A stretch of DNA of 64,000 nucleotides from the NCBI RefSeq assembly GCF_028640845.1, contig NC_080543.1, positions 10,045,459-10,109,458 of the forward strand. Direction: 5' to 3'. The notes beneath the pieces were generated by a model. It was given only the letters and a program-made list of their open reading frames with translations. It was not told where the DNA came from and did not search any database. Positions 868 through 55,294 of this stretch are shown piece by piece. This stretch comes from Ahaetulla prasina (lineage: Eukaryota; Chordata; Lepidosauria; Squamata; Colubridae). How positions within the stretch are numbered: the stretch's first letter is position 1; each line of letters begins with the position of its first letter. The translations under genes and the position numbers were made by a program.

Positions 868-2290
<1,423 letters not shown>

Positions 2291-3125
2291 TATAGGTCTT
2301 TGGTTGTTCGGGTTTTCTCCCGTGTAAAATTGGAAGTGTCTTGGCGACGTTTCGACGAAGTCTCATTCGTCATCTTCAGGCTTCAGCTTCGTGCTTCTGG
2401 GAGCAATGTGTGATCGCAGCTGTTTCTTCCTTTTAACTGCTAGTGGGGGTTTGAACTGATTGGGTGGGAGCTTGGCTGTGCTCTGATTGGATGGGGGTTT
2501 TTCTGTGCTCTGATTGGCTGGGGGTGTGTCCTGTGTTGGTGGGGGGTTGGTTGTGCTCAGTCTAGTCTGTGCTGCAGGGGGATTTGAGCTGGTGAGCTGC
2601 ATAGCTGTTGTTTGGCTTTGTGGTCGTGCTACATCTTCATAGTGGGTGTCAGTCTGCTGCATGAATGGATTGGAGGGGTTTGAAATGGCTAATGTTGCAG
2701 CTGCGGTCTGGCTTCTGGTCCTTGGTCGTGCTTCATGATCAGTGTGGGTTTGGGTCTGCTTTCTGGGTGGATGTCGGTGGTGACATCCTGTGTGGACCTC
2801 GTGAGTGTGGGTCTGGTGTCATTCCTCGTGTTAGGGACTCGTTTGTCAATAAGGGCGGGTTTCCAAATGGCTGGTAGGCGGGAGGTGTCATCTCGTTTGT
2901 TCATGCTGTGTGGGCGTTTTTCTATCTCAATGGCTTCTCTGATTATTCTGTTGTTAAAGTGTTCAGTTTTGGCAATAGTTCTGGTCTTTTTAAAGTCAAT
3001 ATCATTTCCTGTGACTTTAAAGTGTTGGACCAGGGAAGAAGTTGGTTCCTCTTTTTTGAATGAGTTCTTGTGTTCTTCAATGCGTGCACTTATTCTTCTG
3101 TTGGTTTGTCCAATGTATGTGGTGG
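2291..3125 (-). mobile_element. Penelope-like element family A, copy 2 (3' part)
   Basis: About 90 percent identical by eye to the 3' part of copy 1 (compare 2600-3110 with 1320-1830). It contains the end of the nuclease region, the P/T-rich 3' segment, an intact hammerhead at 2379-2346 and the short tail, and joins copy 1 head to tail. It lacks the RT. Confidence 0.8.
2346..2379 (-). ncRNA. Hammerhead ribozyme motif, PLE-A (intact core)
   Basis: On the minus strand: CTGAAGA (2379-2373), one extra T, stem II GACGA/TCGTC around an 8-base loop, then GAAAC and GTC. This matches the CUGANGA...GAAA...UH hammerhead core, with predicted cleavage after GTC at 2346. Stem III is the short palindromic ACGU, as in minimal PLE hammerheads that work best as dimers. 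It lies in the pseudo-LTR between the two PLE copies. Confidence 0.75.
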
Positions 3126-3195
3126 CCTACCAGCCATTTGGAAATCCGCCCTTATTGACAAACGAGTCCCTAACACGAGGAATGACACCAGACCA
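3126..3195 (+). mobile_element. Inverted PLE-A fragment
   Basis: These ~70 bases are the reverse complement of about 2813-2878, so the PLE block ends with a short internal inversion, directly fused to a CR1 3' end. Confidence 0.75.
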
Positions 3196-7737: not shown

Positions 7738-8007
7738 TTGTCCACCCTGAGGATAAAACACCCAGACACAAAATGCGCAACCTGGTATATGCAGTGCAAT
7801 GCAGTGAGCCATGTGCAAGATCTGTACAAAACAAAACAACCACTTCATGTTCGCATGGCACAACATAGGAGAACAAGCCCATCAGGACATGATTCAGCAG
7901 TCTATCTGCATTTAAAAGACAAAGACCACTCTTTGGAAGACAGCAAAGTCCACCTTTGGAACAAAGAAGACCACTGGTTTGAAAGAGGCCTCAAAGAGGC
8001 CATGTAG
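7738..8007 (+). pseudogene. PLE-B GIY-YIG endonuclease C-terminal remnant
   Basis: An 89-codon frame with LYKTKQPLHVRMAQHRR, SGHDSAVYLHLKDKDHS and EDHWFERGLKEAM, a clear match to the PLE nuclease module. The YIG tyrosine-isoleucine-glycine is altered to YKT, and the preceding VYAVQC block is in another frame (7784-7800), so it is inactive. Confidence 0.8.
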
Positions 8008-8245
8008 GTCAAAATTGAATAGCCCTCTCTCAGCAGAGGGGGAAAATACAACACAATTTATCTCCAGTCTACGACACAGTCCTTTCAACAGTTCCAAGAA
8101 GGCTCCACATCCATTTGCACTATTTGGATGACCCTGAGGACACAGATGAACCTTCAGGTGGCCTCAATGACTCTCTAAAAGGATGCAAATGACCAGCTGT
8201 CTGCAAGGAATACAAATCCTTCCATTCCCCACCATCCAGTCAGAG

Positions 8246-8279
8246 CTGAAGAAGCTTCTTTAATAAGAAGCAAAACGTC
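8246..8279 (+). ncRNA. Hammerhead-like motif, PLE-B (G12 lost)
   Basis: CTGAAGA (8246-8252), one extra A, stem II GCTTCT...AGAAGC, then AAAACGTC in place of GAAACGTC. The invariant G12 is replaced, so cleavage should be lost or very weak. Confidence 0.65.
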
Positions 8280-8374
8280 TTCAAAGAAAAACCAGAAAGT
8301 CTAGTTGCTCCTCGAAAAAGCACCTTTGGGACAACCATGACCACTCCCACCAACACTGACAGGGCAAGACATTT

Positions 8375-8492
8375 GTATATGAACTGACAGCAAACCTCAC
8401 TCCTTTCTAGCACTGATGATGTTACCTAGCTGGGTAATGAAACATTCACAAGAAAACAGCCAAGCTCAGAGAACACCAAGGACTCCATGGTT
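8375..8492 (+). mobile_element. PLE-C 3' fragment with near-intact hammerhead
   Basis: CTGATGA (8413-8419), one extra T, stem II GTTACC/GGTAAT, GAAAC at 8439-8443, then ATT instead of GTC/GTT. Followed by the AAGAAAACAGCCAAGCTCAG flank shared with the 54.6-kb copies. Confidence 0.6.
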
Positions 8493-8679
8493 GAGTCTTT
8501 AGTCTGGCAGGGTTTTGTCTATTGGTGTGAAACAAGAAACAACAGACTAGAAGAATTAACACATGTTGTTCTTGCTTTGGGGGCCTGATATATATATATA
8601 TATATTTGTTTTCTGAAGTTTTCGCGGGTGTCGCCAAGACACTTCCAATTTTACGCGGGAGAAAACCCGAATAACCAAA

Positions 8680-8752
<73 letters not shown>

Positions 8753-8944
8753 TGAGGTTTTCGCGGGTGTTTGTATGTAGGTCTTTGGTTATTCGGGTTT
8801 TCTCCCGCGTAAAATTGGAAGTGTCTTGGCGACGTTTGGCCAACCTCTACATGGAACATCCAATGGATGTGTTACCCCGACTAGCAGTTAAAAGGAAGAA
8901 ACAGCTGCGATCACACATTGCTCCCAGAAGCACGAAGCTGAAGC

Positions 8945-8978
8945 CTGAAGATGACGAATGAGACTTCGTCGAAACGTC
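8945..8978 (+). ncRNA. Hammerhead ribozyme motif 1, PLE-A cluster
   Basis: CTGAAGA 8945-8951, extra T 8952, stem II GACGA 8953-8957 with TCGTC 8966-8970, GAAAC 8971-8975, GTC 8976-8978. Predicted cleavage after 8978. All core residues are present. Confidence 0.75.
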
Positions 8979-9023
8979 GCCAAGATACTTCCAATTTCTG
9001 TGGAGAAAACCGAATGACCAAGG

Positions 9024-9098
<75 letters not shown>

Positions 9099-9286
9099 TG
9101 AGGTTTTCGGGTGTTTGTATGTAGGTCTTTGGTTATTCGGGTTTTCTCGCGTAAAATTGGAAGTGTCTTGGCGACGTTTGGCCAACCTCTACATGGAACA
9201 TCCAATGGATGTGTTACCCCGACTAGCAGTTAAAAGGAAGAAACAGCTGCGATCACACATTGCTCCCAGAAGCACGAAGCTGAAGC

Positions 9287-9320
9287 CTGAAGATGACGAA
9301 TGAGACTTCGTCGAAACGTC
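9287..9320 (+). ncRNA. Hammerhead ribozyme motif 2, PLE-A cluster
   Basis: Identical to motif 1 at a spacing of 342 bases; predicted cleavage after 9320. Confidence 0.75.
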
Positions 9321-9365
9321 GCCAAGATACTTCCAATTTCTGTGGAGAAAACCGAATGACCAAGG

Positions 9366-9440
<75 letters not shown>

Positions 9441-9628
9441 TGAGGTTTTCGGGTGTTTGTATGTAGGTCTTTGGTTATTCGGGTTTTCTCGCGTAAAATT
9501 GGAAGTGTCTTGGCGACGTTTGGCCAACCTCTACATGGAACATCCAATGGATGTGTTACCCCGACTAGCAGTTAAAAGGAAGAAACAGCTGCGATCACAC
9601 ATTGCTCCCAGAAGCACGAAGCTGAAGC

Positions 9629-9662
9629 CTGAAGATGACGAATGAGACTTCGTCGAAACGTC
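9629..9662 (+). ncRNA. Hammerhead ribozyme motif 3, PLE-A cluster
   Basis: Identical to motif 1, again 342 bases on; predicted cleavage after 9662. A read-through RNA would release 342-nt monomers between the three sites. Confidence 0.75.
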
Positions 9663-9710
9663 GCCAAGATACTTCCAATTTTACGCGGGAGAAAACCCGA
9701 ATGACCAAGG

Positions 9711-9766
<56 letters not shown>

Positions 9767-9874
9767 CATACATATACATATACATATATACATATACATA
9801 CATACATACATACAACGAAGTCTCATTCGTCATCTTCAGGCTGGTGTTTACAGCTTCGTGCTTCTAGGAGCAAT

Positions 9875-9946
<72 letters not shown>

Positions 9947-9997
9947 GGTATTGGCATATTCGGTTCTTTTCCCGTGTAAAGTTGAGAGTATCTTGGC

Positions 9998-10031
9998 GAC
10001 GTTTTGACGAGGTCTCACTCATCATCTTCAG
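9998..10031 (-). ncRNA. Hammerhead-like motif, PLE-A (G12 lost)
   Basis: Minus strand has CTGAAGA (10031-10025) and stem II with TCGTC, but AAAAC replaces GAAAC. It forms an inverted pair with the motif at 10089. Confidence 0.55.
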
Positions 10032-10088
10032 GCTGGAGCTTTCGGCTTCGTGCTTGTGCGAGCAAAGTGCAAAGCCGAAAGCACCAGT

Positions 10089-10122
10089 CTGAAGATGATG
10101 AGTGAGACCTTGTTGAAACGTC
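10089..10122 (+). ncRNA. Hammerhead motif with weak stem II, PLE-A
   Basis: CTGAAGA, extra T, GATGA/TTGTT (mostly wobble pairs), GAAAC and GTC. Core boxes are intact but stem II is weakened. Confidence 0.55.
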
Positions 10123-10461
10123 GCCAAGATACTCTCAACCTTACATAAATTCTAGCACTTAACCTAGGGTTATCTTACAATTGCTATTAGCAAACAGCAG
10201 AAGTTCTTTTTCCCCCCCTATAAGACCATTTCTGATTTGCTTTATGGTGAATCACTCTCTATTTACAGTCAATTGCAAGCACTCCTACTGACGTCTCCAA
10301 AACAGCACTAATAATACACCAAGGGAATGTATCTGCCTATTTGGGAACCCACAAGTCTGCAAAGGATTTGTACCAAACCCTTTGGGAGGGGAGAGAGAAA
10401 AGTCAAGGATGGGCACACCTGGTGTCACAGATGCATCTAATGACCCTACCCAACATGGTAC

Positions 10462-47461: not shown

Positions 47462-47780
47462 TTTGTGTCCCGAAGAGAAGGACGATCTAAATTACCTTCT
47501 ACTGGCCTGGCTGTTAGTGATCCATTTAGCAAACCAGTTGGTTTTAATTGGCCTCGCTCTGTCTGGATGACACTGAACAGAATTAGGTGTGACATTGGAA
47601 GACATGCCTCTGTCCTGTATCAATGGGGCTGGAAATATTCTCCTTGGTGTGTCTGTGATGCTGATACGCAAACGATTAAACATATTTAAATGTTTATGGA
47701 GATTCTCAGTCAGCCAGGTCATGGTTGCCCCAAAGGTGCCTTTTCAAGAGGCAACTGGACTTTCTGGTTTTTTCTGTGAA

Positions 47781-47814
47781 GACGTTTCGCTTCTCATACA
47801 AGAAGCTTCTTCAG
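47781..47814 (-). ncRNA. Hammerhead ribozyme motif, PLE-B (intact core)
   Basis: Minus strand: CTGAAGA (47814-47808), extra A, stem II GCTTCT/AGAAGC closed by TGTATG, GAAAC, GTC. All core boxes intact with a 6-bp perfect stem II. Predicted cleavage at 47781. The best-preserved family B copy. Confidence 0.75.
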
Positions 47815-48108
47815 CTCTGACTGGATGGTGGGGAATGGAAGGATTTGTATTCCTTGCAGACAGCTGGTCATCTGCATCCTTTCTAGAGAGTCGTCAAGGC
47901 CACTTGGATGTTTGTCGGTGTCCTCAGGGTTTGCAACACAGTCCTTTTAGCAGTTCCAAGAAGGCTCCACAGCCATTTGCACTACTCAGGTGACCCTGAG
48001 GACACAGGTGAACTTCCAGGTGGCCTCAACGACTCTCTAAAAAGGATGCAAATCACCAGCTGTCTGCAAGGAGTATAAATCCTTCCACCTCCCACCATCC
48101 AGTCAGAG

Positions 48109-48142
48109 ACGAAGAAGCTTCTTCGATGGGAAGCGAAGCATC
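48109..48142 (+). ncRNA. Hammerhead-like motif, PLE-B (decayed)
   Basis: ACGAAGA replaces CTGAAGA and GAAGC replaces GAAAC; stem II remains pairable. Confidence 0.55.
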
Positions 48143-48254
48143 TTCAAAGAAAAGCCAAGAAAGTCCAGTTGCCTCTTGAAAAGGCACCTTTGGGATATTA
48201 AATATATTGTGCAAGATTGTCCATGAGGTGCGTTCTCTGATTGCTTAGAAGATC

Positions 48255-53840: not shown

Positions 53841-54600
53841 TTTATTTAACAACCAACCTCCATATCCAGAAAAAAAGATGGGGGAAAAAAACCCCTACAT
53901 GCGTGCTTTAAGTCCATCTACACCGCTCTTTGTGACTGTTGATTTTATCAAGCATCATTAAGGGCAGCCCGTGGTCACGAAATCGCCATCGTTAACAGCC
54001 TGCCAGCATCTTTAATTTTGCTCCATCGTTGCTGTATTGTTTTACATAACATTGATTTTTACAACCCTGTTTACAACCTGGTCCCTGGAGATGCGTTCCT
54101 GTTGCTGACCATAGTTTTGTGAATGCCAGGTAAATAGCCTTTTTAGTTTCCTAAGCATTTAAAAATGTTGTACTGCTTTTAAATCTTTACACATTTGTTT
54201 CCTTTTGCCACTAATCTTATCACGCTTATATCCTTGCCATTTATTCTATGTTTTCTGTGACTTGCACCTAATGCAGACAACAGCAGCTATAGGGCAACTC
54301 AAAGGTGCAATAAATAATTCAAATATGCCCTCAAACGCTGCAACTGTCCCAGTCAAAATATATTCCCCGAACAAATATTTGAATGTGATGTATCAACTGT
54401 GTTTTCTTTGTGCGTGTGTGCTTTCCTAAATCCAGTGTTGGAATTCCAAAAGTCGTTCGGCTTATTGCAAAAATTTCAGAAATTTATCTGGTGCTAATAA
54501 TTGGTTTTGGATTGCTTAGTTTGTTTTTGTCGGAGGGCACCGAGCTTGGATTGGTGACTGCAAAATGTTTCTTTACCTTACTAAGAGGCAGCAGGATTGT
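53841..54600. other. No recognised feature
   Basis: AT-rich unique-looking sequence. Confidence 0.4.
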
Positions 54601-54642
54601 GGAGTCCTTGGTGCTCTGAGCTTGGTTGATTTTTTTCTTGTA

Positions 54643-54676
54643 GACGTTTCATTACCATAATATGTAACATCATCAG
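54643..54676 (-). ncRNA. Hammerhead ribozyme motif, PLE-C (intact core)
   Basis: Minus strand: CTGATGA (54676-54670), extra T, GTTAC...GGTAAT stem II, GAAAC, GTC (54645-54643). All core boxes intact. Confidence 0.7.
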
Positions 54677-54872
54677 TGCTAAATGAGAGTGGGGTTTGCT
54701 CTCTGTGGGGAATGGAGTGGAGCAAACCCCACTGTCTTCTAGCACTGGTAATGTTACATAGTTTGGCAATGAAACATCTGCTAGAAAACAACCAAGCTCA
54801 GAGTGCACCAACAACCTCACAGTTCTCCTCCTCCTCCTCCTCCTCCTCCTCCAACCCCACTCCCTTCTAGCA

Positions 54873-54906
54873 CTGATAATGTTACCTAGTTTGGTAATGA
54901 AACGTC
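54873..54906 (+). ncRNA. Hammerhead-like motif, PLE-C (one core change)
   Basis: CTGATAA instead of CTGATGA; stem II GTTACC/GGTAAT; GAAACGTC intact. Confidence 0.55.
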
Positions 54907-55294
54907 TACAAGAAAACAACTAAGCTCAGAGTACACGCAGGGCCCCACAGTCTTCCTCCTCAAACACCACTGCCACCATTCCGCAAACCCTGCTCCCTTC
55001 TACCATGTTACTTAGCTGGGTAACGAACAACTAAGCTCAGACTGAGGACTCTGCAATTCAACCCTGAGCTACAAATATTCTCTTCTATCAACACTGCAGG
55101 AGTTTTTGGAGAAATGGGCTTCATTGGTGGGGCTGGAATGATGGATTCTTCCGTCTTAGCTGCTTGCACTTGTCTGAATGAGATGGTCAAGAGGGCAAAT
55201 TTTCTTTCCCTTTGCTCATTAGCTATAGGATGATGCCCTCTTTTAGAGCTTTTCCTTAAGACCAACTGAAAGTGCTAGTTGCCAATGTTTACAG

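Follow-up and report, generated by a model that had tools for sequence, protein, structure and literature searches.

A three-unit hammerhead array in Ahaetulla prasina is probably a locally duplicated fragment of a Penelope-like element

The analysed window, the whole 64 kb stretch of DNA from the snake Ahaetulla prasina, holds a tandem array of hammerhead motifs at 8630-9782, which with a probability of roughly 85% arose by local tandem copying of a Penelope-like element (PLE) fragment of snake type that is 5'-truncated, has no ORF and joins 3' ends head to head, lying in (TA)n. The array adds a new case to a known kind, that of PLE pseudo-LTR pieces locally tandemised within a TA repeat. Each unit would consist of two PLE 3' ends joined together: the left one is an inverted tail, the right one a direct pseudo-LTR carrying the hammerhead and the ORF start.

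Hammerhead cores in the window

Both strands of the window were scanned for CTGANGA followed, after a gap of 8-38 nt, by GAAACGTC. This gave seven matches, three of which (3/7) were the array cores already noted, whereas 100 dinucleotide shuffles gave a mean of 0.03 matches and a maximum of 1, and none (0/100) contained seven. The scan confirmed that the cores at 8945-8978, 9287-9320 and 9629-9662 (all +; cuts predicted after 8978, 9320 and 9662) are identical, and the same 34-nt core, CTGAAGATGACGAATGAGACTTCGTCGAAACGTC, also occurs at 2346-2379 (-). The remaining matches are at 10089 (+), 47781 (-) and 54643 (-). The first-pass annotation lacked the fourth identical core, the three further ones and the inverted PLE tail present in each unit.

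The array motif (CTGAAGA...GAAACGTC) has the CUGANGA / GAAA core and zero helix III nucleotides, and judged from its sequence it is the ordinary minimal PLE hammerhead without helix III. The covariance-model check that had been proposed for hammerhead families left the Rfam models unmatched: a hammerhead match was missing both from the gathering-score results for the whole window and from the 80 matches obtained up to E = 10 in 8000-10300. The miRNA-type Rfam matches in 8000-10300 were rejected, all being under their gathering scores and reflecting the long hairpins and TA tracts. In each PLE hammerhead of the window (2346-2379, 8945-9662, 47781-47814 and 54643-54676), an additional nucleotide, U or A, separates CUGANGA from the G that opens stem II. 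In the usual hammerhead layout CUGANGA is followed by stem II with no such nucleotide. The core with its next bases gave 0 matches to viral contigs and 0 to bacterial or archaeal genome contigs, as expected because the array is an animal repeat. No title on this snake array was found in the literature covered, to which subscription journals mostly did not belong.

Array units and their PLE counterpart

A degraded tandem PLE at 966-3126 (-), with protein remnants, two pseudo-LTRs and a tail, served as reference within the window. Its order on the minus strand is protein remnants, a pseudo-LTR with the hammerhead core identical to those of the array (2346-2379), further remnants, another pseudo-LTR whose hammerhead is broken (about 1077-1047), the tail and then TA, the tail being adjoined by (TA)46 at 962-871. 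Its 240-aa frame (2369-1647) matched, among 209 candidates, 52 proteins with E values of 0.001 or less; the top two belonged to Ahaetulla prasina (87% identity over 74% of the query) and Crotalus tigris (90% over 52%), and a Phrynocephalus GIY-YIG protein matched at 82% over 35%. The closest protein, annotated in Ahaetulla prasina as 'P2Y purinoceptor 1 isoform X3', carries reverse transcriptase domains and is probably a retroelement piece fused to a gene model. Above its cut-off, Pfam found nothing in three in-window frames, and so neither a reverse transcriptase (RT) nor a GIY-YIG domain, so the identification as a PLE rests on the protein matches. The frame read from the hammerhead ATG of the PLE copy is MTNETS(S)KRRQDTSNF; the hammerhead therefore overlaps the ORF start, like that of Anolis PAc. 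From this ATG to the TA, the tail measures 108 nt.

Array units match this PLE at 99% over 105 nt in the pseudo-LTR and hammerhead, and at 92-94% over 87-88 nt in the inverted tail. The array sequence is thus common to a copy that bears PLE protein remnants, and its units combine direct and inverted pseudo-LTR parts with a tail. Two proposals of the first-pass annotation, that the cores are of the PLE pseudo-LTR type and that the array derives from a PLE, are borne out by the shared core and by the alignment of both unit halves to the in-window PLE at 92-99%.

Tandem-repeat analysis gave a period of 342, 3.4 copies and 96% matches for 8630-9782. The exact 342-nt spacing reported before holds, as the cut-to-cut units 8979-9320 and 9321-9662 are 342 nt each and identical. 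The long perfect run at offset 342 (8806-9339 against 9148-9681) is 534 nt, which amounts to perfect repetition over some 2.6 unit lengths. A unit is laid out as (TA)34, inverted PLE tail, short junction holding an imperfect 15-nt palindrome, and direct pseudo-LTR with the hammerhead over the ORF start. TA repeat flanks the array units on both sides, and in such flanks a target-site duplication would look no different from the repeat itself. The TA tract earlier seen in every unit is 68 bp in each case (8683-8750, 9029-9096 and 9371-9438, by tandem-repeat and unit comparison).

To the left of the first full unit lies a truncated one, X0 (8611-8682, +), in which an inverted-tail stretch of about 21 nt (8611-8631) is joined to a direct piece from the cut-site side of the hammerhead (8630-8682), the latter 94% identical to 9660-9712. 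In the first full unit, A1, the inverted tail is of a long variant (8751-8837, -; 94.3% identical over 88 nt to 1150-966 (-), the end of the PLE) and terminates in AAACGTC, from the 3' part of a hammerhead. The A1 junction with its palindrome (8838-8873, +; self-match at 8870-8856, 93%) leads into the direct end of the unit, comprising pseudo-LTR, hammerhead and ORF start, which alignment places at 8874-9028 (+) in a short right-arm variant (92.9% over 155 nt against 2450-2290 (-) of the PLE copy, with subject 8874-9025). Unit A2 has a short inverted tail (9097-9179, -; 92.0% over 87 nt) and a short variant of the direct end, made up of the same three parts (9216-9370, +; 92.9% over 155 nt, subject 9216-9367). 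Unit A3 joins a short inverted tail (9439-9521, -; 92.0% over 87 nt) to a direct end of the long right-arm variant, again with hammerhead and ORF start (9558-9712, +; 96.1% over 155 nt), and the array ends in an interrupted TA/TACA tract that tandem-repeat analysis placed at 9716-9812. Variants between units lie only in the GC-rich hairpin arms (8979-9028, 9097-9179 and their equivalents), and some of them may be sequencing or polishing errors.

Published PLEs show comparable arrangements. Direct and inverted pseudo-LTRs, an optional tail and a preference for simple AT-rich targets are reported, with head-to-head as the commonest inverted order of copies and palindromes at the inverted junctions (PMC3846280); tandems, truncation, inverted pseudo-LTRs and short extensions are likewise described (PMC8969392). 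In Anolis PAc the hammerhead overlaps the ORF start and reverse transcription begins 111-118 nt into the ORF (PMC11167929), close to the 108 nt between ATG and TA in the snake tail. The array resembles Anolis PAc (PMC11167929) and Adineta Pen2a_Av (PMC3846280) in having the hammerhead over the ORF start, a tail that reaches about 100 nt into the ORF, both an inverted and a direct pseudo-LTR, an AT-rich target and partial tandems. It differs from these two, as they are described there, in having no internal ORF between the pseudo-LTRs and in being a perfect 342-bp repeat that encloses TA tracts. The array had been described as unlike a normal PLE, but its unit matches the in-window PLE, and a direct plus an inverted pseudo-LTR with tail is an arrangement on record (PMC3846280).

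Further head-to-head pairs in the window, 47717-47930 with 47929-48195 and 54600-54706 with 54721-54947, belong to two other PLE families, whose hammerhead cores lie at 47781-47814 (-) and 54643-54676 (-). The near-perfect palindrome at 9975-10145, with arms 89% complementary and a 9-nt spacer, is a further head-to-head case; it carries a hammerhead-like core at 10089-10122 (+) and a degenerate one at 9998-10031 (-), with AAAAC for GAAAC.

Origin of the three copies

The PLE machinery probably put head-to-head copies into a TA repeat; an identical third unit would then have been gained when two units underwent unequal exchange, or else through a loop in the assembly. The arms come in variants: A1 is long on the left and short on the right, A2 is short on both sides, and A3 is short on the left and long on the right, so that A2 has an A3-type left arm and an A1-type right arm. 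Since one unequal exchange in an A1-A3 dimer yields exactly A2, these variants are consistent with a two-unit array that gained its third unit in a single exchange, although an assembly loop would look alike.

It is possible, if unlikely, that an artefact accounts for the perfect third copy (or for more), the assembler having over-walked a repeat loop and given the TA tracts one length. Both the 534 nt of unbroken identity at offset 342 and the shared length of the three TA tracts, exactly 68 bp, would suit such an error, the equal tracts being just as compatible with unequal exchange; however, the outer-arm variants distinguish the left end from the right, and the sequence therefore requires a minimum of two hammerhead units. 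That at least three PLEs inserted separately into the TA repeat, with no tandem duplication, is very improbable. PLEs do favour AT-rich targets (PMC11167929 and PMC3846280) and every unit is TA-flanked on both sides, but the same junction, truncation point and TA length would be unexpected from independent events, and an independent insertion per unit was rejected on the identical junction and TA length. The local tandem of a PLE fragment is thus the reading we retain, with the reservation that the right and left arms come from slightly different subfamilies, which speaks against a settled history of the first unit.

Predicted folding and the retrozyme comparison

In an isolated 102-nt piece, folding favoured the hammerhead stems (0.94 for stem II, 0.51 for inner stem I). 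With the unit's own inverted tail present, the cut site was predicted to pair with the tail at a probability of ~1.0 and inner stem I fell to 0. A fold prediction for 8751-9716 likewise had all three cut sites (3/3) paired with an inverted tail, at a probability of about 1, and forcing the ribozyme stems in one unit (8751-9182) cost about 39.0 kcal/mol. Inner stem I was also rare (0.006) in the normal PLE copy, which has no inverted arm, and the hairpin is therefore not the sole obstacle. Three motif pieces compared with shuffles had no excess folding stability (z = 0.34 for the 75-nt motif, 0.04 and 0.41).

These are equilibrium predictions, and protein or co-transcriptional folding could permit cleavage. 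Because the inverted tails are predicted to pair with the cut sites and would hold them in long hairpins, free self-cleavage of the RNA into 342-nt monomers appears unlikely. The release of such monomers, as first proposed, is made doubtful in prediction by the absence of helix III and by cut sites predicted to lie in duplex with the inverted tails. According to the Anolis study, the PAc hammerhead showed no cleavage without protein, and 0 RNA-seq reads ended at the cut site (PMC11167929); PLE hammerheads without helix III are said to act as dimers (PMC7761336 and PMC6155905).

We also considered a PLE-derived mobile hammerhead repeat, whose transcripts would be cut into 342-nt monomers that circularise and are copied into tandems by PLE reverse transcriptase, and judged it quite improbable. 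Metazoan retrozymes have tandem units of 150-450 bp and less than 50% GC (PMC7229834); the 342-bp tandem unit and the low regional GC (0.373 over 8001-10000) fall within both limits, and PLE hammerheads are reported to be active as dimers. Against this, the motif lacks helix III, its cut sites should be locked according to the predicted folds, only three units occur in the window, the unit is PLE pseudo-LTR sequence plus an inverted tail, and the Anolis hammerhead was not cleaved without protein and lacked RNA-seq ends at its cut site (PMC11167929). The array is like the non-LTR retrozymes of metazoans in having hammerheads in short, low-GC tandem repeats, whereas those are described as showing circular RNA and as having hammerheads of canonical type I whose loops contact each other (PMC7229834). 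A canonical type I hammerhead has helix III, which the snake motif lacks, and the Rfam hammerhead models were unmatched; the snake motif is minimal, PLE-derived with an inverted tail, and known here from DNA. The hammerhead satellite of newts (~330 bp; PMC7229834, PMC6155905) is similar in unit length and has a dimer-dependent type I hammerhead, but by its description it is not PLE pseudo-LTR sequence, and the snake window has three units. The suggested satellite or retrozyme identity is therefore unsupported, given that the fourth identical core lies in a degraded PLE pseudo-LTR and that the units match that PLE.

At most, the array would function as a PLE hammerhead. The idea that the head-to-head PLE end is a self-contained, TA-bounded repeat, in which 342-nt RNAs, released with the aid of PLE protein or of dimers between adjacent hammerheads, are recopied into TA tracts by PLE reverse transcriptase, is very improbable; if true, such a repeat would bridge PLEs and retrozymes. 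Under the reading favoured here, that of a locally tandemised PLE fragment, an eye-catching ribozyme array comes down to ordinary PLE structure with a local duplication added, and the predicted folds suggest that inverted PLE tails should silence their flanking hammerhead by pairing with its cut site.
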